Positions 1,102-16,034 of a stretch of 22,653 bases of DNA are shown in pieces. The stretch comes from a virus. Position 1 is the first letter of the stretch, and each line of letters begins with the position of its first letter. The stretch lies in IMG/VR virus record IMGVR_UViG_3300025127_000307, positions 1 to 22,653 of that record; one strand, given 5' to 3'. A program made the position numbers and the translations under genes. A model generated the notes under the pieces. That model searched no databases. It was not told the DNA's origin and saw only the letters and a list, made by a program, of their open reading frames with translations.

Positions 1102-2023
1102 GACTTCAGGATGGGGCAGGTTTACCTGGGGCCAAGCTTATTGGAACGCAGACACAACTTTAAAAACAGGTTGGGGTGCACAAGCCTGGAATGATGGTGA
1201 GTGGGGCGAACTCAAAGACGCAACAATATTTCCAACAGGTTTATCTATAACATCTAGTGTTGGCTCAGTTGACGTACCAGATCAAATAATTACACCTTCA
1301 AGTTTTGAAATAACATCATCACAAGGTGAAGCTTTTGTTCCTGTAAATGTAGAAGGGGTATCAGCAACATTTTCGATTGGTTCAGTATCTGTAGTAGATA
1401 TGCAGGTAGGTCTAACTGGTCAATCCACAACAACTTCTGTTGGTTCTGTATCTGTTAATGACATGACTCTTGGTCTAACAGGTCAGGAGTTTACTGCAAG
1501 TCAGGGAACAGCGAAAGCACCAAATGAAACAGCAATACTATCTGGTGTATCAATCACATCAGAACAAGGAACAGCACAAGGTATTTCCTCACAAGAAGCA
1601 ACATTAACAGGAGTGTCTTTCAGCGCTAGTGTTGGTAGTGTTACGATACCAAATGATGTAGTTCAAATATCTGGATTAGAAGCTACTTTCGCTCAAGGAA
1701 CGATTGTCGGATTAGGTGGAGCTGTGGCTCAACCAACTGGTCAATCAGCTACGGCATCTGTAGGTTCTTTGACAATAGAAGAGGGTCTAGGATTAACTGG
1801 TCAATCATTTAGTGCTAGTGTTGGATCTATATCACTGACCGATATTATTGTCGGATTAGATGGTTTCTCAATAACATCTAATGTGGGAGCTGTAGATATC
1901 TTTGCATATGGTGATGTTGACACTGGTTCAAATACATCATATAGTAATGTTTCGACAGGTTCGAATGATACATATTCGGATGTTGCAACTGGATCAAATA
2001 CAAGTTATAGTGACGCTGCATAG
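1094..2023 (+). CDS. Trp-rich, tandem-repeat virion/fibre-like protein (309 aa)
   Basis: No named function is recognised. There are three zones. Residues 6-38 are rich in Trp and Gly (GWGRFTWGQAYW, then GWGAQAWNDGEWG), an N-terminal signature I associate with marine phage structural proteins. Residues 46-272 hold about eleven diverged repeats of 19-22 residues with consensus near GLTGQSFTASVGSVSV, some ending in SQGTA instead. Residues 276-309 hold three short repeats, TGSNTSYSNV, TGSNDTYSDV and TGSNTSYSDA. Each long repeat could form two or three strands of a beta solenoid or an elongated fibre shaft. The start has a strong ribosome site GGAGG that overlaps the upstream stop (TAGGAGG, 1081-1087) and lies next to a hairpin around the ATG. 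A fibre, spike or head-decoration role is inferred from repeats and neighbours. Confidence 0.6.
   Translation: MSTTSGWGRFTWGQAYWNADTTLKTGWGAQAWNDGEWGELKDATIFPTGLSITSSVGSVDVPDQIITPSSFEITSSQGEAFVPVNVEGVSATFSIGSVSVVDMQVGLTGQSTTTSVGSVSVNDMTLGLTGQEFTASQGTAKAPNETAILSGVSITSEQGTAQGISSQEATLTGVSFSASVGSVTIPNDVVQISGLEATFAQGTIVGLGGAVAQPTGQSATASVGSLTIEEGLGLTGQSFSASVGSISLTDIIVGLDGFSITSNVGAVDIFAYGDVDTGSNTSYSNVSTGSNDTYSDVATGSNTSYSDAA
1229..1909 (+). repeat. Coding array of about eleven ~20-residue repeats
   Basis: The translated unit, near GLTGQSFTASVGSVSV, recurs with 19-22 residue spacing through residues 46-272 of the 1094-2023 product. Two endings alternate, SVGSVxV and SQGTA. The DNA copies are diverged, so the array is old or maintained at protein level rather than a recent slippage product. 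Confidence 0.7.
1919..2020 (+). repeat. Three short C-terminal repeats (TGSNxxYSxV)
   Basis: The last 34 residues of the 1094-2023 product are three consecutive 11-residue copies: TGSNTSYSNV, TGSNDTYSDV and TGSNTSYSDA. The unit differs from the longer repeat before it and may form a separate tip or attachment element. Confidence 0.7.
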
Positions 2024-2033
2024 GAGATAATTT

Positions 2034-2990
2034 ATGGCATCTACATTTACGCCTTTAGGGGTAGAACTTCAAGCAACTGGTGAAAACGCCGGTACATGGG
2101 GAACGAAGACTAATACTAATTTACAAATCATAGAACAGATAGCTGGTGGTTACGTTGCTAAAGATATAGCAGGTGGTGCACAGACGACTGCTTTAGCTGT
2201 TTCTGATGGATCAACTGGTGCAGAATTATCTCACAGAATGATTGAGTTTACAGGAACAATCACAGGTAATCAAATTGTAACAATACCTTTAGATGTGCAA
2301 ACTTTTTACTTTTTAAGAAACTCAACATCAGGTGCATATACAGTTCAATTTAAATATGCTTCTGGTTCAGGAGACTCGTTTACTTTTTCAGCCACAGATA
2401 AAGGTGATGCTATTGTATTTGCAACTGCAAGTGATAGCACTAACCCTAATATTGATACAATAGCTTTAGGTATTTCAAACATAGTAGAGGATACAACACC
2501 GCAACTTGGTGGTAATCTAGATACTAATTCTTTCATGGTAGATTTCGATGATGCTCACGGTATCAGAGATGAGAATGCAAACGAACAATTGATTTTTGAG
2601 ACAACTTCCTCTGCGGTAAACCATGTAGATGTAACAAATGCTGCAACAGGAAATGGTCCACAGATAGGGGCCGTTGGTGATGATACTAATATCAGTTTAA
2701 AATTAAGGCCAAAAGCAACCGGTAATATCGAGGTTATGGGTGCAACAAACCCAGGCTCAATTCAGCTCAATTGTGAATCTAATTCGCATGGGATTAAGTT
2801 AACCAGTCCACCCCACAGTGCTGGACAGTCATATGAGATTAAATTCCCTACAGGAAATATAACAGCAGGCACATTTTTAAAGGTAGATAGCGTTTCTGGG
2901 TCAGGAACCAGTGGAGTTGGTACATTAACCTTTGATTCTTCACCAGCAACAACAGGAAAAGCTATTGCAATGGCAATCGTATTCGGATAA
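2034..2990 (+). CDS. Tail-fibre-like protein (318 aa)
   Basis: The N-terminus carries the motif TGENAGTWGTKTNTNLQ (residues 15-31), which recurs at the start of many phage tail-fibre-like proteins and probably serves as the virion attachment end. It is followed by beta-rich sequence without membrane segments or enzyme motifs, a segment near residues 156-165 (TPQLGGNLDT) also common in marine phage fibre proteins, and a glycine/serine-rich C-terminal region ending in KAIAMAIVFG. The start is fixed by TAGGAG (2021-2026), in which the previous stop codon is part of the ribosome site. It likely forms a trimeric fibre or appendage. The fibre class is fairly well supported by the N-terminal motif; the receptor is unknown. 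Confidence 0.65.
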   Translation: MASTFTPLGVELQATGENAGTWGTKTNTNLQIIEQIAGGYVAKDIAGGAQTTALAVSDGSTGAELSHRMIEFTGTITGNQIVTIPLDVQTFYFLRNSTSGAYTVQFKYASGSGDSFTFSATDKGDAIVFATASDSTNPNIDTIALGISNIVEDTTPQLGGNLDTNSFMVDFDDAHGIRDENANEQLIFETTSSAVNHVDVTNAATGNGPQIGAVGDDTNISLKLRPKATGNIEVMGATNPGSIQLNCESNSHGIKLTSPPHSAGQSYEIKFPTGNITAGTFLKVDSVSGSGTSGVGTLTFDSSPATTGKAIAMAIVFG

Positions 2991-3002
2991 AAGGAGTAAA
3001 TT

Positions 3003-3395
3003 ATGGCAAACCCAAATATAGTATCAGTAACAAGTATTAAAGGTGAATCGGTAGGATTTAATTTATCAGCTACCACTACAACAACTTTAATGACAGTGTC
3101 TTCTGATAAATTAATAAAAATAAATAGAATAACAGTTGCAAACGTAGATGGAACTAATGCAGCTGACGTAACTGTTTCGGTTACAAAATCAAACTTTACT
3201 TCAGATGGTATTACCAACTTTGATACTTCTGGAACTTTTCACATAGCAAAAACAATATCTGTTCCAGCTGACGCAACGTTAGTATTACTTGACACACCGA
3301 TATATTTAATGGAAGCAGATGTCCTAAAAGGTGGAGCAAGTGCTGCCTCAGATTTGGATTTATTCGTATCATATGAAGTCATAGACGACGCGTAG
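3003..3395 (+). CDS. Small beta-rich virion protein (130 aa), paralogue of the 12225 gene
   Basis: The function is not recognised. The pattern is all-beta: TTTTTLMTVSSDKLIKINRI, then a VDGTNAADVTVSV strand pair, then KTISVPADATLVLLDTPIYL and a C-terminal LDLFVSYEVID strand. The same order of elements occurs in the 113-residue product at 12225-12566 (LYTVPSF, then GTTITVTLVD, then KTISGNATTELLSQPLVM, then ELHVIASILEI), so the two are probably distant paralogues. The start has AAGGAG at 2991-2996, seven bases before ATG (2996 to 3003). A minor structural role (decoration, neck or fibre connector) is inferred from context only. Confidence 0.6.
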   Translation: MANPNIVSVTSIKGESVGFNLSATTTTTLMTVSSDKLIKINRITVANVDGTNAADVTVSVTKSNFTSDGITNFDTSGTFHIAKTISVPADATLVLLDTPIYLMEADVLKGGASAASDLDLFVSYEVIDDA

Positions 3396-3405
3396 GAGTC
3401 CACTG

Positions 3406-3441
3406 ATGGAGCGAAAGGAAGTAGCTAATGAACCAAGATAA
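3406..3441 (+). other. Possible 11-codon leader ORF before the first LamG/SPRY gene
   Basis: An ATG at 3406 lies seven bases after TAGGAG (3393-3398) and opens an 11-residue frame (MERKEVANEPR) that stops at TAA 3439-3441, 11 bases inside the next gene. The main gene at 3428 has its own weaker site (AAAGGAAG, 3414-3421) within the mini-ORF. It may couple translation, or it may be a chance ATG in an otherwise unusually long leader. It could also be a remnant. Confidence 0.25.
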
Positions 3442-4885
3442 CGGTGGAGTCATAGGAAAAATAAATACACCAACAACAACTCTGGCCTCAGGTGTATGGT
3501 CTTTAGATAGTCAGTTTGATTCACAAGCATCATCTATATGGCCTCTTGCCTTTCCACAAGTAACTTTTACTAATTCATGTAGATTTAATGACGATGATTC
3601 AAATTACCTAAATAAAACATTCTCAGGTAATGGCAATAGAAGAACATTTACATTATCTTGGTGGTTTAAAAATATGGGTGGAAATGTTCACATGAAATCA
3701 GGATCAAGTGGAGATTTTTTTACTTTAGATAATAATAGTAACAGACTTAGACTTAATGGTGCTGATTCATCAGTAGACAAATTTCAACTTATTTGTAATA
3801 GAGTATTTAGAGATCCATCAGCTTGGTATAATTTTGTTGCGGCTTTTGATACAACACAATCAACATCTAGTGACAGGGTGAAATTTTATGTAAATGGTTC
3901 TCAGGTTACTTCTTTTGCAGTAGAAAATTACCCAACACAAAACTATGAGACTCAATGGGGTAATAGTTCACTTTCACATGGAATAGGTGCTAGACCAGAT
4001 GGTAATCATTATTTTGATGGTTACATGACAGAAATTATTTATGTTGATGGACAACAACTCACACCATCTTCATTTGGTTTAACAAATCCTGTTTCAAATA
4101 TTTGGGAACCCAGAGCGTACACAGGAACCTATGGTACTAATGGATTTAAATTAAATTTTTCTGATTCATCAAATTTAGGTGATGATACTTCAGGAAATGG
4201 AAATGATTTTACTGCTCAAAATATGTCAAGTACTAATCAGTCGACTGATACCTGTAGCAATAACTTTGCAACATTTAATCCGGTAGTAAATGCAGCTGGA
4301 AACAATTTAACTTTATCAGAGGGTAATTTAAAAGTAACTAGCGGAAGTAATAATTGGAACTCAGCTATAGGAACTATTGCTGTAAATTCAGGCAAATGGT
4401 ATTGGGAAGTTAAAATTATAAATGCAACATATAATTATAATCATGGTGTATTTTCTTTAATTACAGGAGATATAAATGATACAGATAATCCCATGAACCA
4501 AACAGGATATAGTGGTTTTTACAATACAGATGGTGGAGAAACTAGAATTGATGATACAGTATCTACAAGTGATTTTGGAACATTTGCAGCTAATGATATT
4601 TTAGGTTTCTATCTTAATGCTGATGACAATCAATTTACTATTTATAAAAATGGTAGTTCTCATGTTTCCGCAACTAATTTAGGCACAGGAAGAACTGATT
4701 TAGTTCCTATTGCAGTTCATTATAATGGAGGGGTATCAGACTATAATTTTGGTAATTCACCGTTTAGCATTTCATCAGGAAACGCAGATGCCAATGGTTA
4801 TGGTAATTTTGAATATTCTCCTACAATAGGAGGAGTAAATTATTATGCCCTTTGCACCAAGAACCTAGCGGAGTTTGGAGGATAG
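3428..4885 (+). CDS. LamG-like + SPRY-like receptor-binding candidate, copy 1 (485 aa)
   Basis: Domains, in order: an N-terminal anchor-like stretch (residues 4-17, DNGGVIGKINTPTT) shared with copy 2; a concanavalin/LamG-like jelly roll at about 50-212, with the family-typical AWYNFVAAFDTT (132-143), VKFYVNGSQV (151-160) and YFDGYMTEIIYVDGQ (195-209); a linker with LGDDTSGNGNDF; and a SPRY-like domain at about 318-447, starting SGKWYWEVKI and including ILGFYLNADDNQFTIYKNG. The C-terminus has NYYALCTKNL. Both folds usually bind sugars or proteins, so a fibre or receptor-binding role is inferred. It ends with TAG at 4883-4885, directly abutting the ATG of the next gene in the same frame. Its paralogue is 5920-7458. 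Confidence 0.7.
   Translation: MNQDNGGVIGKINTPTTTLASGVWSLDSQFDSQASSIWPLAFPQVTFTNSCRFNDDDSNYLNKTFSGNGNRRTFTLSWWFKNMGGNVHMKSGSSGDFFTLDNNSNRLRLNGADSSVDKFQLICNRVFRDPSAWYNFVAAFDTTQSTSSDRVKFYVNGSQVTSFAVENYPTQNYETQWGNSSLSHGIGARPDGNHYFDGYMTEIIYVDGQQLTPSSFGLTNPVSNIWEPRAYTGTYGTNGFKLNFSDSSNLGDDTSGNGNDFTAQNMSSTNQSTDTCSNNFATFNPVVNAAGNNLTLSEGNLKVTSGSNNWNSAIGTIAVNSGKWYWEVKIINATYNYNHGVFSLITGDINDTDNPMNQTGYSGFYNTDGGETRIDDTVSTSDFGTFAANDILGFYLNADDNQFTIYKNGSSHVSATNLGTGRTDLVPIAVHYNGGVSDYNFGNSPFSISSGNADANGYGNFEYSPTIGGVNYYALCTKNLAEFGG
4772..4791 (+). repeat. 20-bp exact repeat, first copy
   Basis: Identical to 7357-7376. It encodes the SSGNADAN segment just after the SPRY-like domain in both cassette copies. It is part of the duplicated two-gene cassette and could serve as a homology patch for recombination between copies. 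Confidence 0.7.
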
Positions 4886-4888
4886 ATG
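4877..4888 (+). promoter_or_regulatory. Coupling site: ribosome site, in-frame TAG and ATG
   Basis: GGAGG (4877-4881) lies inside the last codons of the copy 1 LamG/SPRY gene. It is followed by ATAG, with the stop TAG at 4883-4885 and ATG at 4886-4888. All of it is in one reading frame. This arrangement fits termination followed by immediate re-initiation; occasional read-through of the amber codon would give an 830-residue fusion. Confidence 0.6.
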
Positions 4889-5920
4889 GCTGATTATACA
4901 ACTATAGATAATCCGACAAAACATTTTAATACTGTTTTGTATAGTGGTACTGGTTCCTCTAATTCTGTAACGGGTGTTGGTTTTCAACCTGATTGGGTTT
5001 GGTTAAAACATAGAAATGGTGTAAATAATCATTGTGCGTATGATGCAATAAGAGGTGTTCAACAAACAATTCATCCAGATTTAACTAACGCTGAATCCAC
5101 AGATGCAAATAATTTAACTGCATTTGGAACAGATGGATTTACCGTGGGTTCAGGAACTAACGTCAATGGTTCTAGTGGAACTTATGTATCCTGGAACTGG
5201 TTAGGTGCAAATGGAACTACTTCAAACTCAGATGGAAGCATAACATCAACAGTATCTGCAAATCAAACTGCTGGATTTAGTGTTGTTACTTATACCTCTA
5301 ATAGCACCAGTTCAAACGAAACAGTTGGTCATGGACTTGGAGTAAAACCTGATATGGTAATTACTAAAAATAGAGATTCTGGATATAATTGGGATATTTA
5401 TCATTCTAGTTTAGGATACAACGCTAATTTAACATTTACTACTGATGCAACAAGATCAGGTGCTTTTGGTACTTCAGAGCCAACTTCAACTGTTTTTAGA
5501 ACAAGTCCTAGTTTTACTACTAATCTTACAAATAAATACGTGGCTTACTGCTTTGCAGAAAAACAAGGCTACTCAAAATTTGGAAAATGGACAGGTAACG
5601 GACAAAGTTCTGGACCATTTATATACACAGGATTTCGTCCAGCTTTTCTCTCTTGGAAAATGAGTAGTTCTACAGAAAATTGGTACATAAATGATAATAA
5701 AAGAGAGCCATTTAATGATGATGCTATGACAGTTTTATATCCTAATTTAAATAATGCAGACGGCAATTTAAATGATGAGATCGATTTATTATCTAATGGT
5801 TTTAGAATAAATGGCACTAACTCTGCGCACAATACAGATGGTGCAACATATATCTATTGGGCGTTTGCAGAGCACCCATTTGTAACATCAGGAACCAAAG
5901 CAGCGGGGACGGCAAGATAA
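4886..5920 (+). CDS. Three-repeat (DUF7483-like) fibre protein, copy 1 (344 aa)
   Basis: It resembles marine phage proteins annotated as DUF7483; that name is from memory. The protein is built from three diverged repeats at about residues 13-107, 131-228 and 229-331. Each begins with a Y(T)GxG-type strand, has a G(F/L)xPDxVxxK core (GFQPDWVWLK, GVKPDMVITK, GFRPAFLSWK) and ends with a Y(V/I)xWxFAE-type strand (YVSWNWLG, YVAYCFAEKQG, YIYWAFAEHPF). There is no signal peptide or membrane segment. It is co-oriented, in frame and directly abutting the LamG/SPRY gene, so the two products probably act together or are occasionally fused. Its paralogue is 7464-8543; both end in TAR. A fibre tip or adhesin role is inference. 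Confidence 0.65.
   Translation: MADYTTIDNPTKHFNTVLYSGTGSSNSVTGVGFQPDWVWLKHRNGVNNHCAYDAIRGVQQTIHPDLTNAESTDANNLTAFGTDGFTVGSGTNVNGSSGTYVSWNWLGANGTTSNSDGSITSTVSANQTAGFSVVTYTSNSTSSNETVGHGLGVKPDMVITKNRDSGYNWDIYHSSLGYNANLTFTTDATRSGAFGTSEPTSTVFRTSPSFTTNLTNKYVAYCFAEKQGYSKFGKWTGNGQSSGPFIYTGFRPAFLSWKMSSSTENWYINDNKREPFNDDAMTVLYPNLNNADGNLNDEIDLLSNGFRINGTNSAHNTDGATYIYWAFAEHPFVTSGTKAAGTAR
5555..5585 (+). repeat. 31-bp near-identical repeat, first copy
   Basis: It matches 8172-8202 with one synonymous mismatch. It encodes AEKQGYSKFG at the junction of internal repeats 2 and 3 in both three-repeat proteins. The local DNA identity is well above that of the flanking coding sequence. Confidence 0.7.
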
Positions 5921-7458
5921 TGTCTAGAAAAAACGGAGGAATAATCGGACCAGCAAACACACCAGTCGGAGGACTGATGTCAGGAGTGGCAGGTGGTGTG
6001 TGGAGAATGAATGATCTTTTAGATTTTGTCAGCAACAATCAGTGGCCATTGACACCTCAAGATATAGAGAACTCAACAAGGTTTAATGATGGAAGTTCGG
6101 ATTATTTAAGCAGAACACCTAGCAGTGCAGGAAATAGAAAAACTTGGACATGGAGTGGTTGGGTTAAGCGTGGAACTATTGGTGCAAATTCTATATTTGA
6201 AGCTGGCACTGCATCAAATAATAGTCTTGGGTTTCAATTTGAAAGTGGCACAGACCAGTTACAATTTTTTGTTTACAATGGATCAAGTGTTACTGTAAAT
6301 GTAAAAACTACTCAAGTATTTCGTGATGTATCTGCTTGGTATCACCTAGTTGTTGCATTTGATACAACACAAGGAACAGCATCTAATAGAGTAAAATTAT
6401 ATGTAAATGGCTCACAAGTAACTGATTTAGCCGCAACTACTTATCCATCACAAGATACAGACTATAATATTAATAATACAAATGTACACGAACTTGGTCG
6501 AGCTGTTTTTGGTAGTAGTAATTATTTTGATGGTTACATGGCTGAAGTGGTTTTAATAGATGGACAAGCACTAGACCCAACATCATTTGGTGAATTTGAT
6601 TCCACAACAGGAATATGGAAGCCTAAAAAGATAGGTGCACAATTTGCAGCTGGGGGAGGTGCGGGAACAAACGGATACTATCTTGATTTTAAAGATAGTT
6701 CAAATCTGGGCAATGATGCATCAGGAAATAATAATGATTATACTGTTAATAATCTAACAAGCATAGATCAGACTACTGATACCTGTGTTGAAAATTTTGT
6801 AACATTAAGTCCTTTAGCAACAACCACTACACAAGGAACTGTATCGCAGGGTAATTTAGAATTTGATAGATCTGGAAGTAGTGATGGTTGGGTAAGTATT
6901 CTTTCAACAATTGCTGCATCTTCTGGTAAATATTATGCAGAAGTAAAAATTATAGATGTTGGTTCTCCATCACAAGGTTGTGTATTAGGATTTTTAAATT
7001 GGGACAAAACAAATATAATGAATTCTTCATCTACTTATTTAGGTGCTGCCACTGCTGATGCAGGTATGGGTTGGTATTCAGTCGGAAATGTATTTAGACA
7101 AGGTGGTCATGTCAATATTATAAATAGCTATACTGATAATGATATAATAATGTTAGCTATGGATTTAGATAACGGATATTGTTATTTTGGAAAAAATGGT
7201 AGTTGGGAAAATTCAGGTGATCCAACATCAGGTTCTACTGGGACAGGTGGATACGCAACAAGTAATATGACAGCTGGTGGAACTTATTGTTTTGCAGCAT
7301 CTTGTAGAGAAGCGGGAAATGTACAATTTAATTTTGGTAATCCTCCATTTTCAATATCATCAGGAAACGCAGATGCTAATGGATTTGGAAACTTTGAATA
7401 TGCTCCGCCATCAGGATACTATGCGTTAAACACATCTAACCTAAATACTTATGGATAA
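5920..7458 (+). CDS. LamG-like + SPRY-like receptor-binding candidate, copy 2 (512 aa)
   Basis: The start is placed at 5920, not at the earlier in-frame ATG 5857, because 5920 overlaps the previous stop by one base (TAATG) and the sequence from there (MSRKNGGIIGPANTPVGG) aligns with the start of copy 1 (MNQDNGGVIGKINTPTTT). LamG-like region at about 52-217: AWYHLVVAFDTTQ (139-151), VKLYVNGSQV (158-167), YFDGYMAEVVLIDGQ (202-216). Linker LGNDASGNNNDY. SPRY-like region at about 335-478, starting SGKYYAEVKI, with GYCYFGKNGSWENSGD. It ends in YYALNTSNL, matching YYALCTKNL of copy 1. It diverges most in the loops, as expected for surface-exposed binding faces. Its role is inferred to be the same as copy 1. 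It has six residues more between the N-terminal motif and the LamG region, and a longer SPRY loop. Confidence 0.7.
   Translation: MSRKNGGIIGPANTPVGGLMSGVAGGVWRMNDLLDFVSNNQWPLTPQDIENSTRFNDGSSDYLSRTPSSAGNRKTWTWSGWVKRGTIGANSIFEAGTASNNSLGFQFESGTDQLQFFVYNGSSVTVNVKTTQVFRDVSAWYHLVVAFDTTQGTASNRVKLYVNGSQVTDLAATTYPSQDTDYNINNTNVHELGRAVFGSSNYFDGYMAEVVLIDGQALDPTSFGEFDSTTGIWKPKKIGAQFAAGGGAGTNGYYLDFKDSSNLGNDASGNNNDYTVNNLTSIDQTTDTCVENFVTLSPLATTTTQGTVSQGNLEFDRSGSSDGWVSILSTIAASSGKYYAEVKIIDVGSPSQGCVLGFLNWDKTNIMNSSSTYLGAATADAGMGWYSVGNVFRQGGHVNIINSYTDNDIIMLAMDLDNGYCYFGKNGSWENSGDPTSGSTGTGGYATSNMTAGGTYCFAASCREAGNVQFNFGNPPFSISSGNADANGFGNFEYAPPSGYYALNTSNLNTYG
7357..7376 (+). repeat. 20-bp exact repeat, second copy
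   Basis: Identical to 4772-4791; see that entry. It lies at the equivalent position after the SPRY-like domain of copy 2. Confidence 0.7.
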
Positions 7459-7463
7459 AAATT

Positions 7464-8543
7464 ATGGCTTATAGTTCGATTACAAAACCAAGTGATTATT
7501 TTAATACCATCACCTATACAGGAAATGATACAGATGGAAGAACCATAACAGGAGTTGGTTTTCAACCTGATTGGACTTGGGTTAAAGCTAGAAGTAATGC
7601 ATTTTCAGATTATATTATTGATGCTATTAGATATGATAGTGGTTCATCTAAATATTTAAAATTAGATTCTTCTGGAACTGCTGCAGAGGAAACACCTGGT
7701 GCTGCAGGTTGGATTTCAACATTAAATGCAGATGGTTATGTATGTAAAAATGGAACATCTAACACAAATAACTGTAATGAAAATAGTGTAACTTATGTTG
7801 CATGGAATTGGTTGGCTGGAAATGGAACTGCCTCAAATTCCGATGGAGGAACATCATCAACTGTATCTGTAAATACTACTGCTGGACTTAGTATTGTTGG
7901 GTGGTCTGGCGCAGGATCGGCTACTACTGTGGGGCACGGATTGGGAGTAGCACCTAAAGTAGTATTAGTAAAAAATAGAAGTGAAGTTTATGGTTGGCAA
8001 ATGTATCATGAATCTCTTGGAAATGGAAAATATGTATCTCTAAATAGCACAGATGCGGTAGCTACTTCTTCACAATCTTGGAATGATACCTCACCAACAT
8101 CTTCTGTATTTTCTGTTGGAGCTAGTGATTCAAATAATAAAAGTGGAAACAATATAATTGCATATTGCTTCGCAGAAAAACAAGGCTATTCAAAATTTGG
8201 AAGCTACACAGGAAATGGTGGCACAGATGGAACATTTATTTATACAGGATTTAAACCAGCTTGGGTGATGGCAAAAAGAACAGATTCATCTAGTTCAGGA
8301 GCATGGGTTATGTGGGATAACAAAAGAAGCACATTTAATCCATGTGATGAATATTTGGTAGCCAACACAAGTGATGCAGAGAGTACAACTGGCACTCCAA
8401 TAGATATATTTTCAAATGGATGGAAGCCAGGATCAGCAGGAGCTTGCAATATATCAGGTGGATCATTTATATATCTGGCTTTTGCAGAAAACCCATTTGT
8501 GGGTAATGATTCTGGGACCGCGGTGCCAGTAACGGCTAGATAA
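7464..8543 (+). CDS. Three-repeat (DUF7483-like) fibre protein, copy 2 (359 aa)
   Basis: Paralogue of 4886-5920 with the same three internal repeats, at about residues 13-117, 140-239 and 240-342. The cores are GFQPDWTWVK, GVAPKVVLVK and GFKPAWVMAK; the repeat ends are YVAWNWLAG, IIAYCFAEKQG and FIYLAFAENPF. It ends in TAR like copy 1. The ATG is five bases after the TAA of the previous gene (7456-7458) and in a different frame, so no read-through fusion is possible here, unlike copy 1. There is no clear Shine-Dalgarno sequence in the short AAATT gap, so translation probably depends on ribosomes arriving from the gene upstream. A host-recognition role is inferred. Confidence 0.65.
   Translation: MAYSSITKPSDYFNTITYTGNDTDGRTITGVGFQPDWTWVKARSNAFSDYIIDAIRYDSGSSKYLKLDSSGTAAEETPGAAGWISTLNADGYVCKNGTSNTNNCNENSVTYVAWNWLAGNGTASNSDGGTSSTVSVNTTAGLSIVGWSGAGSATTVGHGLGVAPKVVLVKNRSEVYGWQMYHESLGNGKYVSLNSTDAVATSSQSWNDTSPTSSVFSVGASDSNNKSGNNIIAYCFAEKQGYSKFGSYTGNGGTDGTFIYTGFKPAWVMAKRTDSSSSGAWVMWDNKRSTFNPCDEYLVANTSDAESTTGTPIDIFSNGWKPGSAGACNISGGSFIYLAFAENPFVGNDSGTAVPVTAR
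8172..8202 (+). repeat. 31-bp near-identical repeat, second copy
   Basis: It matches 5555-5585 with one mismatch and encodes AEKQGYSKFG in copy 2 of the three-repeat protein. Confidence 0.7.
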
Positions 8544-8588: not shown

Positions 8589-9179
8589 ATGTATGCAAAA
8601 GTAGAAAATAATCAGATCGTAAGAGCAAACTCTAGTCTTGGAGCATTCGGCATACCAATCAGTTCAACTGTGGCCGAAAGAGAGGCTCAGGGCGTTTATG
8701 AGATCATATACGATAATACAAATCTAAAAGATTCAAGATACTATTGGAATGGTGCAGAGTCTATGGTATTTGCAAATAATGCTGTCACTGCAAGTTATGC
8801 ACCAGCGACAGGCAAAGACGTAGAAGATAAAAATGCAGTTGATGAAGATGGTAATAATGTTCTAGATGAAGACGGTAATCAGATGATTATCAAAGGTCTA
8901 AAAACTATATTTAAAGAAGAAGTAAAGGCACAGGCTAAAAATTTATTATCATCAAGTGACTGGTATGTAATTAGAAAAGCAGAAGATGCTGGATCTACAA
9001 TACCTGCTGACATAGCTACTTACAGAGCAGCTGTTAGAACCAGATCTAATGAGATGGAAACAGCGATCGATGGTGCAGCTGATGCAGCGGCTATGGAAGT
9101 TTTGTATACATATACCAATACAGGAACAGAAGAGAGCCCTGTTTATACTAGACCTTTGGGTGAGTGGCCTAAACTTTAA
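8589..9179 (+). CDS. Putative tail-fibre assembly chaperone-like protein (196 aa)
   Basis: It starts at ATG 8589, six bases after a good ribosome site (AAAGGAG, 8576-8582). The N-terminal half (MYAKVENNQIVRANSSLGAF) resembles the first strands of small fibre-associated proteins. Residues 84-98 carry two DEDGN boxes that look like calcium-loop fragments. The C-terminal helix-rich part (about 107-160) contains SSDWYVIRKAEDAG, then IPADIATYRAAVRTRSNEM, a signature shared by phage proteins annotated as fibre assembly or DUF4376-type. In those families the gene follows the fibre gene, as it does here. The function (helping fold or trimerise the fibres encoded just upstream) is inferred; it may instead be a structural component. 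Confidence 0.5.
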   Translation: MYAKVENNQIVRANSSLGAFGIPISSTVAEREAQGVYEIIYDNTNLKDSRYYWNGAESMVFANNAVTASYAPATGKDVEDKNAVDEDGNNVLDEDGNQMIIKGLKTIFKEEVKAQAKNLLSSSDWYVIRKAEDAGSTIPADIATYRAAVRTRSNEMETAIDGAADAAAMEVLYTYTNTGTEESPVYTRPLGEWPKL

Positions 9180-9242: not shown

Positions 9243-11426
9243 ATGTTACAAAAAATAGGTTTTGCACCAGGAATCAATAAACAGATCACAGCAACAGGAG
9301 CAGAGAGTCAGTGGATTGACTGTGATAATGTTAGGTTTAGATATGGCACACCTGAAAAAATAGGTGGTTGGAAACAATTGGGAGACGATGCTCTTACTGG
9401 TGCAGGTAGAGGACTTCATCATTTTGTAAATAGTTCAGCTAGAAAGTATGCTATCATCGGCACAAACAGGATTTTATATGCATTTTCTGGTGGTGTGTTT
9501 TATGACATACATCCGATTAAATCTACAACAACGCTTACAAGTGCATTCACCACGACCAACGGATCAACATCTGTTACAATAACTTTTAGTGGAGATCATG
9601 GTATATCAGCACAAGATATAATTTTATTAGATACTTTCTCTTCAATTACTGATTCTAATTTTGCAGCTGCAGATTTTAATAATAAAAAATTCATGGTGAC
9701 TACTGTCCCTAATGCTACAACTATCACAATTACAATGCCATCAGCAGAGTCAGGATCTGGTGCAACAACATCAGGTGGGATTAGAGTTCAACATTATTAT
9801 CCTGTAGGACCAGCTGTACAGGCAAAAGGTTTTGGTTGGTCACTTGGAACTTGGGGTGGTGAGGTTGCAGGAGAACCAACAACAACTTTATCTGCAGCAA
9901 TAAACTCCTCAACAACAACTGGTATTACATTAGCAGATGTATCACAATTCCCAGATACAGGTACAAATTTTATAAAAGTAGGAACAGAAGAAATATCTTA
10001 TACAGGCATTAGCACGTCTAATGAATTAACAGGTGTTACAAGAGAAGTCAGAGGTACAACTGCTGCATCACATGGTGCAGGAGATGCAGTCACTAGCACT
10101 ACAAACTTTGTGGCCTGGGGTGAGGCAGCATCAGGTGATTTAGTATTAGAACCTGGTATGTGGTCACTTGATAATTTTGGTGACAAGGCAATCTGTCTAA
10201 TACATGATAGTGCTGTATTTGAATGGAACTCTGCAGCAGCAGATGCAACATCAAACAGAGCTACAATTATAACTGGTGCACCCACTGCATCAAGACACAT
10301 GTTAGTATCTACACCAGACAGACACTTAGTATTCTTTGGAACAGAAACAACGATTGGAGATACATCAACACAAGATGATATGTTTATAAGATTCTCTGAT
10401 CAGGAAGATATAAATACCTACACACCTACAGCAACCAATACAGCTGGTACACAAAGACTGGCTGACGGATCACAGATCAGAGGAGCGATTAGAGGTAGAG
10501 ATTCAATTCTTGTTTGGACTGACACAGCTTTATTTACTATGCGTTTCGTTGGTCAACCATTTACATTTGCATTCGCACAGGTTGGAACACACTGTGGACT
10601 TGTTGGACAGAATGCTTGTGTTGAAGTTGATGGTGCTGCATATTGGATGTCAGAGAATGGTTTCTTTAGATATGCTGGTAAATTAGAATCACTACCATGT
10701 TTGGTAGAGGATCACGTTTATGATAATATAAATCTAGAGTCTGGTAATCAGATGGTATCAGCAGGTCTAAACAATTTGTTTGGTGAGGTTATGTGGTTTT
10801 ATCCAACGACTGGATCTAGTGTCGTAAATAGAATGGTCTGTTATAATTATTTTGATTCAGCACCACAGAGACCAGTATGGACTGTGGGCACGCTTGCTAG
10901 AACAATGTGGCAGGACTCCGCAGTATTTGGTAGCCCACATGCAACAGAATACACTGCTGGTAATGATTCATCTTTTGATGTTGTGGGCAACACAGAGGGT
11001 AGAACAATATACTATCAACATGAAACAGGGACAGATCAGGTTCAAGGTGGATCAACTACGGCTATTGTTGCAAGTATATCTTCTGGGGATTTTGATATAA
11101 GTCAGAGAAGAAGTGTAACTGGTCAAACGACTGGAACAGCAGATCTTAGAGGAGATGGTGAATTTATAATGAAGATAAGAAGGTTTATACCTGATTTTAT
11201 ATCACAGACTGGCAACACACAGGTGACACTACAATTAAGAGATTTTCCAAATGATAGTCAGGCTAGTTCTGCACTAGGACCATTTACCGTATCATCATCT
11301 ACTAAAAAAGTGGATACACGTGCAAGAGCAAGAGCTATTGCATTAAAAATAGCTAATACAACAACTAATCAAAGTTGGAAACTAGGCACCTTTAGATTAG
11401 ACATACAACCGGATGGTAGACGATAA
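9243..11426 (+). CDS. Tail nozzle/stabilisation-like structural protein (727 aa)
   Basis: It starts with GFAPGINKQITATGAESQWIDCDNVRFRYG (quoted here only in part: residues 6-19 and 23-35), then GGW and RGLHHFVNSSARKYAIIGT, then LYAFSGGVFYDIHPI. This opening is typical of large podovirus tail proteins annotated as stabilisation or nozzle proteins, which are beta-propeller-like and sit at the distal tail. Two beta insertions interrupt it: about 100-168 (Thr-rich, with FSGDHGISAQDIILLD) and about 213-290 (QFPDTGTNFIKVGTEEISY, then LTGVTREVRG). After them come WSLDNFGDKAICLIHDS and a long beta region with LVWTDTALFTMRF and AAYWMSENGFFRYAG, each a propeller-blade-like strand pattern. The C-terminus (from about 650) has a basic, strand-rich end. 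It stops one base into the next ATG. Confidence 0.6.
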   Translation: MLQKIGFAPGINKQITATGAESQWIDCDNVRFRYGTPEKIGGWKQLGDDALTGAGRGLHHFVNSSARKYAIIGTNRILYAFSGGVFYDIHPIKSTTTLTSAFTTTNGSTSVTITFSGDHGISAQDIILLDTFSSITDSNFAAADFNNKKFMVTTVPNATTITITMPSAESGSGATTSGGIRVQHYYPVGPAVQAKGFGWSLGTWGGEVAGEPTTTLSAAINSSTTTGITLADVSQFPDTGTNFIKVGTEEISYTGISTSNELTGVTREVRGTTAASHGAGDAVTSTTNFVAWGEAASGDLVLEPGMWSLDNFGDKAICLIHDSAVFEWNSAAADATSNRATIITGAPTASRHMLVSTPDRHLVFFGTETTIGDTSTQDDMFIRFSDQEDINTYTPTATNTAGTQRLADGSQIRGAIRGRDSILVWTDTALFTMRFVGQPFTFAFAQVGTHCGLVGQNACVEVDGAAYWMSENGFFRYAGKLESLPCLVEDHVYDNINLESGNQMVSAGLNNLFGEVMWFYPTTGSSVVNRMVCYNYFDSAPQRPVWTVGTLARTMWQDSAVFGSPHATEYTAGNDSSFDVVGNTEGRTIYYQHETGTDQVQGGSTTAIVASISSGDFDISQRRSVTGQTTGTADLRGDGEFIMKIRRFIPDFISQTGNTQVTLQLRDFPNDSQASSALGPFTVSSSTKKVDTRARARAIALKIANTTTNQSWKLGTFRLDIQPDGRR

Positions 11427-12061: not shown

Positions 12062-12225
12062 TGGCAAAGATAGTACAAGTATTAACAAGACCAAGTAAAG
12101 AATATGATTTGTTTACAGCAGAGGCACAGGTCAGAGATCTTGATGCAATTGTAGAAAAATTGAATACAACGTTTCAACAGGAATTAAAAGATGAGGTAGA
12201 GGCATTTAACTTCTTTTTACAATAA
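12061..12225 (+). CDS. Small acidic helical phage protein (54 aa)
   Basis: A 54-codon gene with one-base overlaps at both ends (TAATG at 12059-12063 and 12223-12227). The product starts MAKIVQVLTRPSKEYDLFTA and ends DEVEAFNFFLQ. Most of it (residues 18-52) can form one charged amphipathic helix. No family is recognised. The exact stop/start packing on both sides and codon use like its neighbours argue that it is translated. Confidence 0.65.
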   Translation: MAKIVQVLTRPSKEYDLFTAEAQVRDLDAIVEKLNTTFQQELKDEVEAFNFFLQ

Positions 12226-12566
12226 TGGCTAATAGTTTTATAAATAAAAAAGCAGACCTAACTACAACAGATCTAACAACACTATACACGGTGCCTAGTT
12301 TTAAGACAGCTGTCGTTAAATCATTGTTAGTATCCGAGGATGCCGGATCAGGGACCACGATAACAGTAACATTGGTTGATGCTAGTGGTAATATATTTAG
12401 TTTATTTAAAACAAAAACCATATCGGGTAACGCTACAACAGAACTTTTATCTCAGCCTCTTGTAATGGAGGAAAGTGAGATACTTAAAGTACAGGCTGGT
12501 GACGCGAATGAGCTGCACGTCATAGCTTCAATATTAGAAATACAGCCAAGAGAGGTAACATCATAG
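12225..12566 (+). CDS. Small beta-rich virion protein (113 aa), paralogue of the 3003 gene
   Basis: An all-beta pattern: TTLYTVPSFKTAVVKSLLVS, then GTTITVTLVDASGN, then KTISGNATTELLSQPLVMEE, then EILKVQAGDANELHVIASIL. The order and spacing of these elements match the 3003-3395 product, which suggests a duplicated fold used at two places in the particle. It is joined to its neighbours by TAATG at the start and TAGTG at the end. No enzyme motif is seen. It could be a head-decoration or tail-connector protein; function not established. Confidence 0.6.
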   Translation: MANSFINKKADLTTTDLTTLYTVPSFKTAVVKSLLVSEDAGSGTTITVTLVDASGNIFSLFKTKTISGNATTELLSQPLVMEESEILKVQAGDANELHVIASILEIQPREVTS

Positions 12567-12745: not shown

Positions 12746-14080
12746 ATGGCGATATCTAGAATGCAACAACCCAGACAGATGTACGGACTTGGAAGCTTTG
12801 TTAAAAAAGTTACAAGAAAAGTTACTAGGCCTATAACTAAGGTAGCTAAGAAAATAGTGCCAAAAGAAATAGCGGGTATTATGAGAGTTGCTGCACCTTT
12901 CTTGCCACCAGGATATAGAGAAGCAGCATACTTATTGGGAACAGCGAGACAGACTGGTAGAATTAGTCCTGTAGATTTAGCATTAGCCGCTGCACCTACA
13001 TTTTTTGAAAAAACACAAACTGGACAAAATTTATCTACTTCATTTAAAGGGACAAGAGCAGGAGAATTTTTATTAGGTAAAGCACCTCCAAGTTTAGATG
13101 CAGCCATGGCTGGAGAGGCAGGAACAACTGGTTTATTGGGAACGGGTGGTGAATTATTTCAGTTTGGAGAAGGTATGGGTCCAGCAGCTTTTAGAGATCA
13201 AACTAAATTAGGTAGTCTGTTATTAGGTGGTAAAGAACCAGGAACTTTTAGTAAATCTAAATTAGCAGGTTTAGGAATAGGGACGCTATCATTGGTAACA
13301 GCTGCTGAAACACCAAGAGAAGCAGGAATAGCACTGGCCAACCAAACAGGAAATCCTGAAGATCGTGCTAGAGGTGAAGAATTATTTTCATTAATAAAAC
13401 CAGAATTATTTAGGGTTCCAGAAAGATTTAGATTACCTGTACCAGCAGCTAATGGTGGTTTAATGAGAACTAATTATGCAATAGGTAGTGAAGATCCAAA
13501 ACCTGTAAATCCTTTTGGACCAAAACCAACAGGACCTGTATTACCAGAAGAAGATAAACCATTTAGACCAAAACCATTAAAACCTATAAAAATGTCTGAA
13601 GACAATGAAGAAAACATGATGATGGCTGGTATGGATAGAAAGATGGCAGCCCAAATGTTAGCAGATGAATTAGCTGAAGAAGAATTTGGCATGGATTTTT
13701 ATGACCTTGATATACGAACACAAATGAAAATATATCAAATAGCATTAGATATGATTGATGAAGGAGGTGGTAATGCTATGGGTGGACTACCAAATAACAG
13801 AATGAATTTTGCTCTTGGAACAAAACCCACTGCTGAAGAAAGTGGTCTAGGAGGGCTTCCAATTGAAGCAGATATGAGGTATACTGGTGGCTTCATGCCA
13901 TACGGCGCAAAAGAAAAAGCCGATGACGTGCCTGCTAGATTAAGCAAAAACGAATTTGTATTTACTGCCGATGCTGTGAGAGCAGCGGGTGGTGGTAGTG
14001 TCAACAAAGGTGCTAAAAGAATGTATCAAACTATGAAACAATTAGAAGCAAAACCTGAAGCGAAAGGAATGATGGCATAA
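12746..14080 (+). CDS. Putative ejection/internal virion protein (444 aa)
   Basis: The N-terminal 60 residues combine a strongly basic helix (SFVKKVTRKVTRPITKVAKK, 17-36) with a hydrophobic proline-containing stretch (APFLPPGYREAAYLLG). The middle is glycine-rich, and 245-282 is a proline/lysine linker. An acidic helical segment follows (about 283-340). A motif GGLMRTNYAIG (237-247), repeated as NRMNFALG (351-358), resembles ones in the 15033 gene. The C-terminus (394-430: DVPARLSKNEFVFTADAVRA, then GAKRMYQTMKQLE) is a signature of many uncultured marine phage proteins. The role in genome ejection or internal core is inferred. The ATG has no good ribosome site at normal spacing (GGAG at 12722-12725 is 20 bases away). 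Confidence 0.5.
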   Translation: MAISRMQQPRQMYGLGSFVKKVTRKVTRPITKVAKKIVPKEIAGIMRVAAPFLPPGYREAAYLLGTARQTGRISPVDLALAAAPTFFEKTQTGQNLSTSFKGTRAGEFLLGKAPPSLDAAMAGEAGTTGLLGTGGELFQFGEGMGPAAFRDQTKLGSLLLGGKEPGTFSKSKLAGLGIGTLSLVTAAETPREAGIALANQTGNPEDRARGEELFSLIKPELFRVPERFRLPVPAANGGLMRTNYAIGSEDPKPVNPFGPKPTGPVLPEEDKPFRPKPLKPIKMSEDNEENMMMAGMDRKMAAQMLADELAEEEFGMDFYDLDIRTQMKIYQIALDMIDEGGGNAMGGLPNNRMNFALGTKPTAEESGLGGLPIEADMRYTGGFMPYGAKEKADDVPARLSKNEFVFTADAVRAAGGGSVNKGAKRMYQTMKQLEAKPEAKGMMA

Positions 14081-15030
14081 TGGCTGAAACAGTAACACAG
14101 ATACAACAAGCACCAGATTATTTAAGACCTGGTATAGAACAATTTTTAAGCGCTGCTACACAACAAGCAGTTGATCCAATTGATACATCCAAATTTGCAC
14201 CATCCGTAGTTGGATTAGGTGCATTACAACAACGAGCACAACAACAAGCAGCAACACAGGCTGGTCTCGGCACATTACAATTTGATCCTACAACAGGAGC
14301 GGTCTCAGGTGTAACAGGAACAGGAGTTGCAGGGTTCCAACCGTTTTTAACAGATGCACAAACTACTTTAGCTGGTGTATCACCAATGATAGCACAAGCA
14401 GCAACTAGAACAGGTCCTACTGCATTTCAAGCTTTTGAATCACCGTATCAGACAGCAGTTAGAGATGCCACGCTTGCACAATTTGATGAACAGGCAAAGG
14501 CAAGGAGACAAGGTATCAGAGATCAAGCAGCTACATTAGGTGCGTTAGGAGCTGGTAGAACAGGTGTTCAATTATCAGAGTATGATAGAAAGTCTGATAT
14601 GGACAGGGCGTTATTACAAGCACAATTAAATCAGGCAGGATTCACACAGGCCAATCAATTAGCAGCACAAGCATTTCAACAACAAGGACAATTAGCAGGA
14701 TTACAATCAGGACTTGCTAATCAACAATTAGGTTTAGCTCAAATACAACCACAGTTAGCAGCAGGTGCAATAGGCATGGCACAAGGTCTAGGACAATCCG
14801 ATCTGGCGTTTAGACAGGCTATACAGGATGCACAGACACAAGCTAATAGAATGGCTGCGTTTGAACCGATTGATAGACTAGCAAGATTTGGACAAGGATT
14901 AACGGGAGTAGGTGGCATGTTAGGATCAGTGCAAACTCAGACAGGACCATCAGCACCGGTTCAAAGTCCACTGGCAGGAGCATTACAAGCAGGTATAGGA
15001 GCATTTAGTTTAGGTAAACTATTTGGATAA
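14080..15030 (+). CDS. Gln/Ala-rich putative internal virion protein (316 aa)
   Basis: It starts by TAATG overlap. The product is rich in Gln and Ala with long helical segments. It opens with QQAPDYLRPGIEQFLSAA, has an arginine-rich central helix (AQFDEQAKARRQGIRDQAA, about 138-156) next to GALGAGRTG, and then repeated short phrases such as NQLAAQAFQQQGQLAG and ANQQLGLAQIQPQLAAG (about 190-228), and ends in a glycine-rich hydrophobic tail (ALQAGIGAFSLGKLFG). This resembles internal core proteins of T7-like phages (gp14/gp15 position) in composition and place, not demonstrably in sequence. A DNA-ejection role is inferred. Confidence 0.5.
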   Translation: MAETVTQIQQAPDYLRPGIEQFLSAATQQAVDPIDTSKFAPSVVGLGALQQRAQQQAATQAGLGTLQFDPTTGAVSGVTGTGVAGFQPFLTDAQTTLAGVSPMIAQAATRTGPTAFQAFESPYQTAVRDATLAQFDEQAKARRQGIRDQAATLGALGAGRTGVQLSEYDRKSDMDRALLQAQLNQAGFTQANQLAAQAFQQQGQLAGLQSGLANQQLGLAQIQPQLAAGAIGMAQGLGQSDLAFRQAIQDAQTQANRMAAFEPIDRLARFGQGLTGVGGMLGSVQTQTGPSAPVQSPLAGALQAGIGAFSLGKLFG

Positions 15031-15032
15031 AT

Positions 15033-16034
15033 ATGAATTATAAAGTTATGCAAAGACCTATGTTTAAGATGGGAGGCAAGGCTGCTTCTCAAGGCACAGG
15101 TATTACATCAGGTCTAGATGAGAAAGTAAACATGACAGATGGTAGAGCAAACTATGCTGAGGGACCAACTACTTATCAAGATTTTTTAAACAGAGCTATG
15201 ACTAATTATAATCTTAGACAACAAAAAATGGCTGATATGGAAAATTTAATTAATTTACAAGCATTAGGTAGAGTTGGTAATGTTTTAGCTACAGAGGAAT
15301 CTAATAACCCTTTTGATATATTAAAAAATATCGCAATGTCAGGAACTGAAATAGCTTTACCAGCATTATCAGCAAAGAAAAAATTAGAACTTAAAGCATT
15401 AGATCCAACAACAGATCTTGCATTTGCTAAAGCATTAAAACCAACTAGTTCTGGATCACAAAAAGTTTTTGAAATGAAATTTGCTAAATTAGATAAACTT
15501 GAAAAAGCATTGACAAAATTAAATATGGAAAAAGAAAATTTAGATCCTAAAGATTACAGAGATCAAAAAGATAGAATAGAGAGAAGAATGAAACTAACTA
15601 TAGGTTCTAGTTATCAAACAGAAGATGAACTTAAAAAAGATTTAAGAAAAGAATTTAACGATTTATATGGCACACCACCGACCGGCCCACAATTAGATAA
15701 ATACCTAGAAGATTATAAAGCATCTATGGGTTTTGCAGAGGGTGGTAGAGTTAACAGAGCTATGGGTACACCTATGATGGGTGAACAACCAATGGCAAAC
15801 CCTATGGCTGTTGAAAGAAAAGATGTGGCTATGGAAACAAAAGGTGAGGGCAACGATGCGTACGCTATGTTAAGAGCTAGACTACCACAAGAAGTACCAG
15901 ACGATGTTGTAAAATTAATCGCATACAACAAAGAGGCTTTTGCAGACTTTGCAAGTATTAAAAACCAAGAAGACGTAACATCGTTCAATCAGAAATATAA
16001 TGTCTCAATGAACATTGATGTGTCTACCGTATAA
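15033..16034 (+). CDS. Putative internal virion protein with GG motifs (333 aa)
   Basis: It begins MNYKVMQRPMFKMGGKAASQ, followed by TSGLDEKVNMTDGRANYAEG (25-44), a start common in marine phage structural proteins. A helical charged middle (about 100-225, rich in Lys, Glu, Leu) follows. Then FAEGGRVNRAMG (234-245) repeats the theme of the GG...R.NYA.G motif, and a methionine-rich stretch (MGTPMMGEQPMANPM) comes next. The C-terminus (about 279-325: LPQEVPDDVVKLIAYNKEAF, then EDVTSFNQKYNV) looks like a small folded domain that I associate with similar phage proteins. ATG is only two bases after the previous TAA, so translation likely relies on coupling. Function unknown; an ejection-module role is inferred. 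Confidence 0.5.
   Translation: MNYKVMQRPMFKMGGKAASQGTGITSGLDEKVNMTDGRANYAEGPTTYQDFLNRAMTNYNLRQQKMADMENLINLQALGRVGNVLATEESNNPFDILKNIAMSGTEIALPALSAKKKLELKALDPTTDLAFAKALKPTSSGSQKVFEMKFAKLDKLEKALTKLNMEKENLDPKDYRDQKDRIERRMKLTIGSSYQTEDELKKDLRKEFNDLYGTPPTGPQLDKYLEDYKASMGFAEGGRVNRAMGTPMMGEQPMANPMAVERKDVAMETKGEGNDAYAMLRARLPQEVPDDVVKLIAYNKEAFADFASIKNQEDVTSFNQKYNVSMNIDVSTV

Follow-up and report, generated by a model that had tools for sequence, protein, structure and literature searches.

The contig IMGVR_UViG_3300025127_000307, from a marine bacterial virus and analyzed here as a single window that spans the whole IMG/VR record (22,653 bases; the genome is incomplete), carries two gene pairs arranged head to tail, at 3428-5920 and 5920-8543. 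Each pair consists of a gene for a protein with lectin-type LamG and SPRY domains followed by a gene for a three-repeat protein of the DUF7483 family. We denote the LamG-SPRY and DUF7483 genes of the first pair (slot 1) A1 and A2, and their slot-2 equivalents B1 and B2; related loci or contigs that were compared with the window are labeled with L-numbers (Table 1). The genes are closely packed, with no gap between A1 and A2, a one-base overlap between A2 and B1 (TAATG, where the B1 ATG at 5920 lies on the TAA stop codon of A2) and a 5-base spacing between B1 and B2, an organization that appears to resemble that of translationally coupled genes. An earlier interpretation of the window, made from the letters alone (hereafter, the sequence-only reading), described this double pair, and the open reading frames are indeed present at these positions.

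Searches against PHROG and Pfam assigned A2 and B2 to DUF7483 or tail fiber proteins and A1 and B1 to lectin-type domains. The two DUF7483 (PF24299) matches reach 383.5 and 381.5 bits, where the cut-off is 27, and cover positions 2-330 and 1-330 of the 330-position profile. The Pfam Laminin_G_3 profile matches B1 above its cut-off (59.3 bits versus 27.6), whereas A1 falls below it though it is a full-length homolog of B1; the Pfam SPRY match of A1 is likewise under the cut-off (20.4 bits versus 26.3), and no SPRY match is listed for B1. The AlphaFold2 model of B1 (predicted local distance difference test score (pLDDT) 87.6) is beta-rich, with an N-terminal anchor of low confidence, and matches solved SPRY domains in a Foldseek comparison (E 1.4e-10; template modeling score normalized by target 0.79). 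The model of A2 (mean pLDDT 90.9, predicted template modeling score 0.91) consists of three successive beta domains of ~100 residues each, in agreement with the three repeats discerned by the sequence-only reading. For the DUF7483 fold, there was no PDB match at a Foldseek E value of 0.001 or lower, the best VIA-align Z of 5.6 lies inside the stated noise range of that tool, and a profile search against PDB sequences returned only partial stretches at E 0.006 and 0.03; among viral models, there are clear matches, one to a named DUF7483 protein and the rest to nameless ones. Pfam returned no gp10-like XD domain at E up to 1; the anchor is modeled with low confidence. We found no mention of DUF7483 in the literature searched, and the literature search on phage tail LamG/SPRY proteins returned nothing relevant.

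The similarity between the two copies is far beyond chance. In BLASTP alignments over the full length, A1 and B1 are 39% identical (E 4e-94) and A2 and B2 are 45% identical (E 6e-84), and the direct repeats lie in register at a spacing of ~2.5-2.6 kb. All shared motifs that had been pointed out (GGVIG/GGIIG, YYAL...NL and the C-terminal TAR) are present, as are the two nearly identical DNA patches, one of 20 bp without mismatches and one of 31 bp with a single mismatch. The two copies are not, however, mutual closest relatives: the DUF7483 partners rank 181st and 177th among 260 DUF7483 sequences and the LamG-SPRY partners 33rd and 76th among 236 LamG-SPRY sequences. A recent tandem duplication was rejected on these grounds.

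Searches with all four proteins and the anchors yielded ~300 loci, most of which contain one LamG-SPRY/DUF7483 pair, some a fused protein and some two separated pairs. About 30 IMG/VR contigs contain the gap-free double pair (LamG-SPRY/DUF7483/LamG-SPRY/DUF7483) or one end of it, and the slot-1 anchor is followed by the slot-2 anchor in 15 of the 15 contigs that are long enough for both. The two anchors are distinct but paralogous, and the N-termini of single-cassette proteins differ from them (for example, MSLLIPGTNSIKDTGY). The LamG-SPRY proteins are clearly more alike within than between slots in just three stretches, namely, the first 50 residues, the linker (201-275) and the C-terminal end, and the DUF7483 proteins mainly at both ends. 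The nearest relative was found in the same slot for the LamG-SPRY linker (47/47), for the C-terminus (39/39; last 11 residues) and, almost invariably, for the DUF7483 ends (41/43 for the first 25 residues and 44/45), counts that are independent of the anchor-based slot labels. In the tree of interface columns from the tandem-clade phages, the slots split once, with support of 100. This single split, together with the paralogy of the slot-1 and slot-2 anchors, supports an old duplication that took in the entire unit, the one event from which the fixed parts descend.

The domains between these fixed parts (heads) behave differently. Within-slot identity in the slot-1 LamG head drops to 22-58% per 25-residue bin, and the nearest relative was in the same slot for 31/48 LamG heads (p 0.044), 26/43 SPRY heads (p 0.12), 24/43 DUF7483 repeats 1 (p 0.27) and 24/46 repeats 3 (p 0.41). 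When interface and head trees were compared over 47 proteins, the head columns required 13 slot changes versus a shuffled mean of 15.2-15.4; as judged from this tree, the lectin heads keep no slot signal. Since both copies in the window have nearer relatives in other phages than in each other, a reading of the heads as simple duplicates is not supported. Thus, the old duplication proposed by the sequence-only reading holds for the unit as a whole but not for the lectin heads as plain duplicates; the finding that it named as contrary to duplication, copies closer to genes of different phages than to each other, is seen in the heads but not in the anchors.

At the DNA level, the window is a mosaic with sharp borders. 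Along the module, close matches run from L005 (3001-4250) and L160 (4271-4880), past a stretch without a close match (4900-5500), to L003, L004 and L005 (5540-6050), L198 (6114-6600), L197 (6600-7480), L083-L086 (7485-7850, in B2, at 88-93%) and again L197 (from 8477). Compared with L003, identity is mostly 95-100% over ~2000-3480, mostly 50-75% over A1 and most of A2, and mostly 93-97% from 5581, with the jump at ~5540-5581 and 94% over 5540-5988. Compared with L197, which has the nearest downstream flank (the next genes are 97% and 99% identical at the protein level), identity is mostly 95-100% up to ~7480, ~60% over B2 (7483-8480) and 95-100% from 8503, yet the B2 protein is only 49% identical. 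In the available sequence, L160, L198 and L083-L086 have a single pair, and head segments of the window are 88-96% identical in DNA to these single-cassette phages. The slot-1 head of L005 and the slot-2 head of L197 are 96% identical over 405 bp.

Some DUF7483 proteins hold an insert of ~100 residues that separates repeat 1 from repeat 2, in slot 2 of L010, L012, L077, L264, L272, L277, L278 and L283 and in slot 1 of L113 and L201. The inserts of L010, L012, L077, L278, L113 and L201 show a His...Cys..His...Met pattern like that of a type I copper site; the match to Pfam Copper-bind reached only E 0.16.

Gene conversion between the copies, which the sequence-only reading had offered to explain the patches, is unsupported, because slot-1 and slot-2 proteins of one contig resemble each other no more closely than those of different contigs do (LamG-SPRY, 0.444 within versus 0.445 between contigs, permutation p 0.23; DUF7483, 0.478 versus 0.484, permutation p 0.77). 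Both patches encode motifs that are conserved family-wide. The patches were also rejected as DNA-level recombination signals: codon homozygosity is elevated at single codons (A224, S449 and S450), not across whole patches. By patch identity, the window pair ranks within the top 3-5% of different-contig pairs, which is weak evidence because the patches were chosen after the fact.

Table 1. Features of the two-pair locus and its flanks in the window (DNA, nucleotide identity)
Feature	Coordinates	Strand	Remarks
A1, slot-1 LamG-SPRY gene	3428..4885	+	485 residues; phrog_27411 E 2e-81
A2, slot-1 DUF7483 gene	4886..5920	+	344 residues; PF24299 E 1.1e-114; three beta repeats at residues ~9-108, 126-226, 229-332
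B1, slot-2 LamG-SPRY gene	5920..7458	+	512 residues; ATG start at 5920
B2, slot-2 DUF7483 gene	7464..8543	+	359 residues; PF24299 E 4e-114; replaced relative to L197
Slot-1 anchor	3428..3574	+	MNQDNGG[VI]IGKINTPTT..ASGVW...WPL; 89-99% DNA to L003/L005/L006; nearest relative always a slot-1 protein
Slot-1 LamG head (approximate limits)	3575..4024	+	95-97% DNA to L005 only
Slot-specific LamG/SPRY linker, slot 1	4025..4249	+	nearest relative in same slot; mosaic junction from L005 to L160 at ~4271-4281
Slot-1 SPRY head (approximate limits)	4250..4774	+	4271-4879, 92% DNA (tiles mostly 93-96%) to L160, single-cassette
20-bp patch, copy 1	4772..4791	+	encodes SSGNADA, conserved family-wide; copy 2 at 7357..7376 (+)
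Junction of SPRY C-terminus and DUF7483 N-terminus	4775..4960	+	slot-specific at both gene ends
Segment common with L003/L004/L005 (A2 repeat 3, A2 C-terminus, slot-2 anchor)	5540..6050	+	~90-99% DNA in 150-bp tiles
31-bp patch, copy 1	5555..5585	+	encodes AEKQGYSKFG; copy 2 at 8172..8202 (+), one mismatch
Slot-2 anchor	5920..6075	+	MSRKNGGIIGPANTPVGGL..GVWRMN...QWP; nearest relative always a slot-2 protein
Slot-2 LamG head common with single-cassette L198	6114..6600	+	93% DNA over 487 bp
Linker, SPRY head and DUF7483 start common with nearest relative L197	6567..7507	+	96% DNA
Gene directly upstream of slot 1	3003..3395	+	130 residues; present in tandem-layout contigs
Tail-fiber-assembly-like gene, closing gene of the module	8589..9179	+	phrog_4912 (tail fiber assembly) E 8e-7
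Conserved flanking virion gene, 'stabilization protein'-like	9243..11426	+	phrog_3287 E 5e-101; homologs in HTVC023P, HTVC027P and 023Pt_psg01

We interpret this locus, with a probability of about 0.72, as a receptor-binding module of two positions in which the sockets are conserved and the heads exchangeable, and which originated from one old duplication of the pair. The evolutionary part, that is, an old two-slot module with exchanged heads, is well supported by the comparisons above; the receptor-binding and docking roles are those that we infer, and a role in host range is plausible and consistent with a published hypervariable region (PMC10504331). Each position is a closely coupled gene pair that encodes a lectin-like LamG-SPRY protein and a DUF7483 protein with three repeats. 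The domains between the fixed segments are replaced in blocks by recombination; the donor alleles come mostly from the same slot, sometimes from single-cassette phages and, now and then, from the other slot. The slot-specific segments would serve as docking sockets, with the N-terminus attaching to the virion or a partner and the LamG-SPRY C-terminus to the DUF7483 N-terminus, and the variable domains would bind host surface glycans or proteins. With two pairs per virion, such a phage could show two specificities, each changed independently, and head swaps from other phages probably change which host surfaces are gripped.

Several observations weigh against this interpretation. The same-slot count for the anchor (48/48) is circular, because the LamG-SPRY slot labels came from the anchors. 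Repeat 2 of DUF7483 retains a slot signal (37/45), perhaps due to the insert that adjoins this repeat in several slot-2 genes. Close relatives of the heads (75% identity or more) fall in the same slot in 66 of 86 cases, in the other slot in 6 and elsewhere in 14 (a few of these being distant members of the tandem clade); between-slot exchange is hence the exception and recent exchange runs mainly from slot to slot, a pattern that would fit homologous recombination through the slot-specific flanks. The notion of free head shuffling between slots was toned down in view of these mostly same-slot relatives. Furthermore, saturation may partly account for the lack of a slot signal in the heads, and the genomes with the tandem layout are all metagenomic contigs, so that assembly chimeras at conserved patches could mimic some of the mosaics.

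Short-read assemblers misjoin at conserved patches, which this locus offers, and the metagenomic origin of the tandem-layout sequences is what an explanation of the mosaics as assembly chimeras of a mixed marine population would draw on; that the pattern recurs across contigs from many samples with a constant four-gene slot order, and that interface and head trees differ over the 47 proteins, makes this highly improbable. The view of the sequence-only reading, namely, a simple old tandem duplication after which whole genes diverged vertically, with local likeness maintained by purifying selection or gene conversion, readily accommodates the full-length homology and common motifs of both pairs as well as the paralogous anchors with their one split on the tree. 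It nevertheless appears unlikely, given that pieces of a single copy match various phages at 88-99% DNA identity where the neighboring pieces do not, that the profile against L197 drops abruptly from 95-100% to 60% and returns to 95-100%, and that same-contig copies are no closer than different-contig copies.

Separate acquisitions of whole pairs into one locus are less probable still. Both anchors in the window are of the tandem-clade type and paralogous to each other, and the import of a whole pair would bring a single-cassette anchor because single-cassette phages carry a different one, even if either copy has its nearest relatives in other phages and single-cassette phages have heads in common with the window. 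We give the least credence to a targeted mutator, that is, a diversity-generating retroelement, as the source of diversity instead of recombination: such elements typically target lectin-type phage proteins, but the variation, as seen in this incomplete contig, spans whole genes in blocks with sharp borders rather than a short repeat, and near-identical donors exist elsewhere.

The flanks of the two-position module point to a tailed phage of the pelagiphage type. Full-length homologs of the 9243 gene occur in Pelagibacter phage HTVC027P (48%) and in 023Pt_psg01 (44%), and HTVC023P likewise has a close one; the order of genes for a stabilization-like protein, a large structural protein, a small protein, an M15 peptidase and a convergent helicase is common to 023Pt_psg01 and, largely, to HTVC023P and HTVC027P. 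Because the window has these homologs and this gene order in common with those phages, it belongs to a pelagiphage-like tailed phage, probably with a host like theirs. The module sits in a tail-adhesin setting, as seen from its location in the tail module, its tail-family PHROGs (phrog_24898, tail fiber protein; phrog_19943, virion structural protein), the neighboring assembly-like gene and synteny. In L203 and L208, the genes corresponding to 631 and 9243 are 89-95% identical to those of the window, yet there is a single cassette, and the 8589-type gene lies upstream of it rather than downstream. Because such similar backbones carry one cassette in another order, the module type itself is exchanged. 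The gene at 3003 has homologs in L003, L005, L007, L012, L077, L078, L127 and L201, as well as in the different, fused tandem of L152 (43%); none was detected in the close single-cassette relatives L203 and L208. One stretch of L052 is matched by the products of both 12225-12566 and 3003-3395, and these two may therefore be remote paralogs.

Other arrangements of these genes were encountered among the relatives. L152 (4495-9498) has two tandem copies of a fused LamG-SPRY-DUF7483 protein, bordered by homologs of the 3003 and 8589 genes, and the two DUF7483 domains are sisters on the tree (99), which makes this a case of more recent duplication. Upstream of the counterpart of the 9243 virion gene, L258 (HTVC023P, 36241-41937) and L257 (023Pt_psg01, 37471-41678) contain 3-4 tandem genes of ~1.4 kb each, which might be further adhesin sets in tandem. 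The locus at 3399-8273 of L291 (HTVC200P, MH598801) has a DUF7483 gene in inverted orientation with a LamG-SPRY gene on either side. One LamG-SPRY gene is flanked by 58-bp inverted repeats (95%), situated where the two DUF7483 genes begin, so that inversion could join this LamG-SPRY gene to either DUF7483 gene; an IMG/VR search revealed no such inverted arrangement in the other loci examined.

The principle of conserved sockets with exchangeable heads is already known; its two-slot LamG-SPRY/DUF7483 form is new. In the distal tail-fiber adhesins of T4-type phages (gp37/gp38), short conserved motifs, between which recombination occurs, likewise set apart exchangeable specificity segments; those are other proteins, and the motifs in the window are slot-specific and come in two parallel copies. 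HTVC103P, isolated on Pelagibacter HTCC7211, also has two LamG-SPRY/DUF7483 pairs in one phage, but they are separated by other genes and have no match to the slot-1 or slot-2 anchors. The tail spikes of Ackermannviridae are exchangeable and are held within a branched complex by conserved N-terminal domains; there, too, a phage has several receptor-binding proteins with place-setting conserved N-termini and variable parts from other phages (PMC11414711). The protein families are different, and the complex and its effect on the host were demonstrated experimentally. Among marine phage metaviromic islands, which under-recruit, genes for tail fiber, lectin-like and carbohydrate-binding proteins are the most frequent identifiable ones, and the available portion of that account describes no two-slot cassette or slot-specific interface and does not contain the terms LamG, SPRY or 'duplicat' (PMC3909814). 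The closest parallel to the pair is in the HTVC010P-type pelagiphage Skadi-1 (Polarivirus skadi), where the published hypervariable region related to host recognition (13,646-15,713; PMC10504331) falls on a DUF7483-matching gene (13353-14408) and a SPRY gene (14408-15730). As in the window, SPRY-annotated and DUF7483-matching genes are adjacent; they overlap by 1 nucleotide and directly follow a putative tail fiber gene. Skadi differs in having one cassette in the records examined, a DUF7483 protein only 46% identical to that of the window and no match in the slot-anchor searches, which covered viral_contigs only. The Skadi hypervariable region can thus be recast as a one-slot form of a wider module design.

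The backbone of the window resembles isolates that infect SAR11-type bacteria, which rank with the most numerous cells in the ocean; host recognition by phages of this type is largely unknown. By separating fixed, slot-specific ends from varying heads, the locus provides testable docking segments and candidate receptor-binding domains, and it suggests a possible role for the uncharacterized family DUF7483. More tentatively, and at somewhat less than an even chance, abundant ocean phages might use combinatorial adhesins, in which two position-coded sockets accept independently replaceable LamG, SPRY and DUF7483-repeat heads from a pool common with single-cassette phages. If so, a population would contain very many combinations of receptor-binding domains on near-identical backbones.

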